The notes beneath the pieces are model-generated. The model did not search any database. It saw nothing but the letters and a program-made list of their open reading frames with translations, and was not told the origin of the DNA. A program made the position numbers and the translations under genes. Positions 47,623 to 47,772 of a DNA stretch of 60,069 nt are shown here, piece by piece. The DNA is from a virus. The DNA lies in IMG/VR virus record IMGVR_UViG_3300039037_000048, positions 1 to 60,069 of that record. One strand, written 5' to 3'. Each line of letters opens with the position of its first letter. The stretch's first letter is position 1.

Positions 47623-47629
47623 TATTTAG
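47623..47629 (-). promoter_or_regulatory. Late promoter (CTAAATA)
   Basis: CTAAATA overlapping the TAA stop of the frameshift extension, 27 bases before the 66-aa gene. A TATACT box lies a little further downstream. Confidence 0.62.
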
Positions 47630-47752
47630 TCTGCCTTACGCTGACTTTTCAATGCCTTAAGAATGTACTTCTTATTCTTCTTATTGTGCTCCTTGTCTTC
47701 AGCAGCGCCGTCTTTAATTTCAGGCATCACTTCGACGTGAGCACCCTTCACT
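47626..47752 (-). CDS. -1 frame extension of the 317-aa protein
   Basis: After the A AAA AAG site the -1 frame remains open for 41 codons (begins VKGAHVEVMPEIKDG, ends LKSQRKAD), a Lys-rich charged tail. It has the same composition as the main protein, as expected if both are one coding unit. Independent initiation at an internal ATG is possible but has no ribosome binding site. Confidence 0.7.
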
Positions 47753-47772
47753 TTTTTTCTTCTTCGATCTCC
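47723..47772 (-). promoter_or_regulatory. Programmed -1 frameshift cassette (dnaX-like)
   Basis: Upstream AAGGAG Shine-Dalgarno-like element 11 bases before the slippery heptamer A AAA AAG (47751-47757), TGA stop in the zero frame immediately after it, then a 5-base spacer to a stem GGTG(C)TCAC/GTGATGCC with loop GTCGAA (47723-47745). These are the parts of the E. coli dnaX frameshift site in the same order. Confidence 0.8.

Follow-up and report, generated by a model that had tools for sequence, protein, structure and literature searches.

The described systems closest to the locus studied here are the frameshift sites of E. coli dnaX (tau/gamma), of the IS3 and IS1 insertion sequence families and of several phage tail and capsid genes. 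In E. coli the heptamer A AAA AAG is more shift-prone than the other heptamers tested, and one lysine tRNA reads both of its codons (PMC5009743). When stimulators are present, it ranks in the top three heptamers by efficiency (PMC4066793). The end of the gene described below, here called gene A, resembles dnaX in this heptamer, in an upstream SD-like sequence, in a stem-loop a few nucleotides downstream and in the single tRNA-Lys(UUU) found in Synechococcus RCC307. The two genes are unrelated. A first-pass annotation of this DNA had compared the site to the dnaX signal; the order of heptamer, SD-like site and stem is indeed shared, but the layout is reversed, as gene A yields the short form by normal decoding and would yield the long one by the shift, whereas the dnaX shift leads to the short form. 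Unlike in E. coli dnaX, the zero-frame stop of gene A directly follows the heptamer, an arrangement that the dnaX genes of a few other bacteria reportedly share (PMC5009743).

The orfA-orfAB junctions of the IS3 and IS1 families share with gene A a motif of the A AAA AAG type late in the first ORF, a downstream structure and a fusion product. However, gene A encodes a phage protein and no transposase, and the extension that its tail provides is short and Lys-rich. Minor products extended at the C-terminus are also known from the phage tail-chaperone G/GT and the capsid/Ig-domain frameshifts (lambda, T3, A2), but gene A belongs to another protein family and the lambda motif is different. The G-T shift is widespread in long-tailed phages except T4 (PMC5009743); in the T4-like relative studied here the predicted shift lies in another gene than G-T. 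The first-pass annotation knew of no such site in this cyanophage gene, and no earlier description was found in the literature on cyanophage frameshifting, in cyanophage ribosome profiling or, for cyanobacteria and cyanophages, in the PRFect paper. While the mechanism is known from the dnaX and IS types, this gene family and this virus group are apparently new for it, and so is the alternation with an overlapping ATG.

The window, which is the whole stretch of 60,069 bases of a virus record, contains psbA- and psbD-type genes and is therefore assigned to a cyanophage. All features of the locus are on the minus strand, which had been omitted before. Gene A (48701-47748; phrog_4359) encodes 317 aa in the zero frame and ends with GAA GAA GAA AAA AAG TGA, corresponding to the C-terminus EEEKK; sequence and coordinates of this gene end had been given correctly. 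The slippery heptamer A AAA AAG occupies 47757-47751 and the stop TGA, replaced by TAA or TAG in some relatives, follows immediately at 47750-47748. The upstream AAGGAG, an SD-like candidate stimulator, was located as claimed 11 nt 5' of the heptamer (47774-47769). The -1 frame is open for the proposed 41 codons and encodes a tail of 41 aa, VKGAHVEVMPEIKDG...QRKAD (47751-47626 including the stop TAA; phrog_11250), so that the predicted frameshift product comprises 317+41 = 358 aa. A stem-loop, GGGUG(C)UCAC / GUGA-UGCCU with the loop GUCGAA, lies 3' of the heptamer at 47722-47746 and is weak in the window. The next gene (47596-47396, 66 aa, T4-GC 424 / phrog_402) is a conserved neighbour. Within the window, the end of gene A is the sole place where an in-frame A AAA AAG is directly followed by a stop and by a long -1 frame. 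A second in-frame A AAA AAG, at position 311 of the window (minus strand), has a 39-codon -1 frame in a short ORF amid tRNA genes and is probably due to chance.

Judged from sequence, ribosomes are very probably programmed to shift to the -1 frame at the end of gene A. The majority would terminate at the TGA just past A AAA AAG and release the 317-aa form. A fraction would be slowed by pairing of AAGGAG with 16S rRNA and by the stem-loop about 6 nt downstream, and two tRNA-Lys(UUU) would re-pair from AAA-AAG to AAA-AAA (tandem slippage). These ribosomes would bypass the stop and produce the 358-aa form with the tail that begins VKGAHVEVMPEIKDG. In the genome of the marine strain Synechococcus RCC307, 41 tRNA matches include a single Lys tRNA, UUU, which fits the expectation of this mechanism. 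None of the nine tRNAs encoded in the window is a tRNA-Lys.

Relatives were gathered with baits that are independent of the heptamer, namely the 66-aa neighbour protein, gene A alignments, AAR-degenerate Lys patterns and annotated phage genomes, and the junctions were scored without requiring any frame or heptamer. A VEVMP-type tail was found in the -1 frame at 112 of 112 junctions, which are mutually related sequences, so that these and the following counts are not numbers of independent events. A AAA AAG stands directly at the stop in 74 of them and one codon earlier in one (L169, A AAA AAG CAG TAA), and the remaining 37 have an ATG that overlaps the stop (33 ATGA and 4 TAATG). None of the 112 VEVMP-tailed junctions had neither heptamer nor overlapping ATG. 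Homologues lacking the heptamer, which had been named as evidence against a frameshift, do exist, yet they do not contradict it because an ATG overlaps their stop instead. The tails of this ATG group start with M-K-x-F-K-Q-x-R-E-E-C-G-C followed by VEVMP, while those of the heptamer group start with V-K-x-A-x-VEVMP, V-K-K-P-V-VEVMP or V-N-E-A-C-G-C-D-D-K-P...VEIMP. The stop-start overlap (ATGA, sometimes TAATG) together with the extra N-terminus MKxFKQxREECGC was seen in the related group L009-L012, L116-L174.

Heptamer and open -1 frame are kept in 78 distinct junctions, in three Prochlorococcus phages and in four contigs, which supports the dnaX-like frameshift reading of the first-pass annotation, whose proposed check was conservation in homologues. 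At the junctions of the heptamer group A AAA AAG is invariant, and the codon before AAA AAG always ends in A (GAA, TCA, GCA, GGA). The last 50 codons of gene A, with the final three excluded, encode Lys by AAG 546 times and by AAA 151 times, and only 26 of 193 internal Lys-Lys pairs in the relatives are AAA-AAG. No other in-frame A AAA AAG was present in the last 150 nt of gene A in 64 sequences. A tree of the gene A protein was dropped as evidence on account of poor support, the modularity of the protein and the 5-7 changes that the labels frameshift and ATG need on it. A tblastn search with a 32-aa tail gave no match, for which the shortness and low complexity of the query are the probable reason.

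The segment after the stop evolves, to judge from its codon differences, as coding sequence of the -1 frame. Synonymous and non-synonymous differences number 1342 and 1550 in the -1 frame, compared to 413/2409 and 25/2534 in the other two frames. The motif VEV/VEI/VQI is encoded by 16 distinct nucleotide versions, and the residues 5' of the annotated tail ATG are under coding constraint as well. The annotated starts of the small gene (an internal GTG or the ATG of MPE) trim conserved residues in L003-L008, L013, L014 and similar phage records, and in Sf-CH3 (L007) no gene is annotated at the tail.

SD-like stretches of at least 4 nt were found in 61 of 64 relatives, in agreement with the conservation proposed for the upstream site; most of them read AAGGAG with a spacing of 11 nt or AAGGAGG with one of 7 nt, and the other three relatives have none. 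The stem proposed for the window was only partly borne out. GGTG(C)TCAC does pair with GTGATGCC and the stem starts 5 nt past the heptamer, but with -11.4 kcal/mol it is no stabler than shuffled sequence (z 0.04). This particular stem is average and therefore not strong evidence on its own; the evidence for a stem is found in the relatives, where differing stems that covary occur at the same spacing. In S1, the largest group (26 aligned), a long hairpin has 90.5% of cells paired, far above every slid register, and shows 22 double-change cells vs 8.9 +/- 2.4 in shuffles. S2 has a stem of other sequence in the same place, AGGCUUG/CAAGCCU vs GGAGCACC/GGUGCUCC and GGAGUGUCC/GGACACUCC, with compensatory changes in five of nine pairs, a number reached by none of 500 shuffles. 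The stems of S1, S2, L117, L118 and L173 start about 6 nt past the heptamer. Mean MFE z values are -2.7 for S1, -2.4 for S2, -1.4 for the VKKPV group and about -0.8 for the ATG group, while control stretches have means of about +0.5 to -1.4. Against synonymous recoding the mean z is about -2.5 for S1, about -2.1 for S2 and -0.8 for the VKKPV group, whose structure is weak. Taken together, the alignments establish that heptamer, -1 frame, coding character of the tail and downstream structure are conserved in relatives; the occurrence and efficiency of the shift and the roles of the two proteins are what we infer.

In the Prochlorococcus phages P-HM1 and MED4-213 the gene ends with GAAAAAAAG TAG, and in P-HM2 with GAAAAAAAG CAA TAG, where the heptamer is kept though the stop moved one codon downstream. 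The same A AAA AAG cassette was seen in the T4-GC 534 fusion gene of these phages (L484 P-HM2, L488 P-HM1, L489 MED4-213), around position 1800. MED4-213 carries no annotation for the tail, and the annotated tail starts of P-HM1 and P-HM2 differ. In L117, L118, L173 and L493, the last of which is a single-cell amplified virus, A AAA AAG TAG truncates gene A, and the -1 frame continues for a further 131-167 aa. In these four, the -1 frame segment past the slip site includes the CWKGY module, which is located upstream of that site elsewhere; modules have therefore been exchanged across the frameshift site. We tentatively suggest that the site acts as a hinge for recoding, conserved in a protein built of modules, a reading we hold possible rather than probable: the pair of short and long form would be kept across Kyanoviridae and Eurybiavirus, while modules are swapped on both sides and the hinge itself is interchanged with an ATGA overlap.

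Public annotations assume that the tail is a separate small gene, translated by termination and reinitiation at GTGA or from a GTG or ATG soon after. The window does contain GTGA, as its TGA stop also forms an overlapping GTG, the ATG group clearly uses ATGA or TAATG overlaps, and several phage records annotate a small gene from a GTG or the ATG of MPE. However, the stop is TGA in only 44 of the 78 distinct heptamer junctions. It is TAA in 34, which abolishes the GTG, so that reinitiation at GTGA cannot serve TAA/TAG members, and 13 of the TAA junctions lack any ATG, GTG or TTG ahead of the conserved tail. Such a start-codon-free -1 frame is true of a subset of the TAA/TAG members; the window is not among them. 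A start at the annotated ATG is at odds with the coding constraint upstream of it, and in L173 the earliest possible start, codon 35, lies beyond the conserved CWKGY motif. Reinitiation also leaves unexplained A AAA AAG itself, its retention where the stop is displaced, and the downstream stem-loops. We consider it improbable as the explanation of the locus, although in TGA members, the window included, some of the tail may be made by reinitiation at GTGA.

The fusion could also arise by standard decoding if some mRNAs carried an extra A on the A-run. Most members have seven As (GAAAAAAAG), and an added A would give the same protein as a ribosomal shift. Such transcriptional slippage is nevertheless rated very unlikely. 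The A-run is no longer than six in several members (TCA, GCA or GGA AAA AAG), and what is conserved is A AAA AAG with its final G and its phase. The bacterial examples of such slippage, moreover, have runs of about 9 As or Ts (PMC5009743), and covarying stems at ribosome spacing together with SD-like sites suit ribosomes better. A homopolymer run is likewise a typical site of sequencing errors, by which one ORF, or a decayed gene, would appear as two frames. This can practically be dismissed, since many independent genomes share the junction: it recurs in isolates from different laboratories (S-PM2, Syn1, S-CAM1, S-CAM3, S-RIM44, S-RIM32, S-H9-2, P-HM1) and in many independent metagenomic contigs.

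Programmed frameshifting at the end of gene A would thus add a well-supported example of recoding by phages that are among the most abundant virus groups in the ocean. Current annotation splits, mis-starts or misses the second product of the gene. Among close relatives, the same segment is reached through a frameshift in some and through an overlapping start in others, which provides a natural experiment on why a virus would favour a fused protein at a fixed ratio. In Pfam, neither gene A nor the tail of the window has a match that indicates a function. The neighbouring T4-GC 537 is annotated as a virion structural protein, and the neighbour T4-GC190 was detected in the S-SM1 virion (PMC3037559); by this gene neighbourhood the products of gene A may be related to the virion or its assembly. 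The tail of one relative (L013:1767-2030) matches DUF3008 in Pfam, and C-terminal modules are interchangeable in the -1 frame tails.
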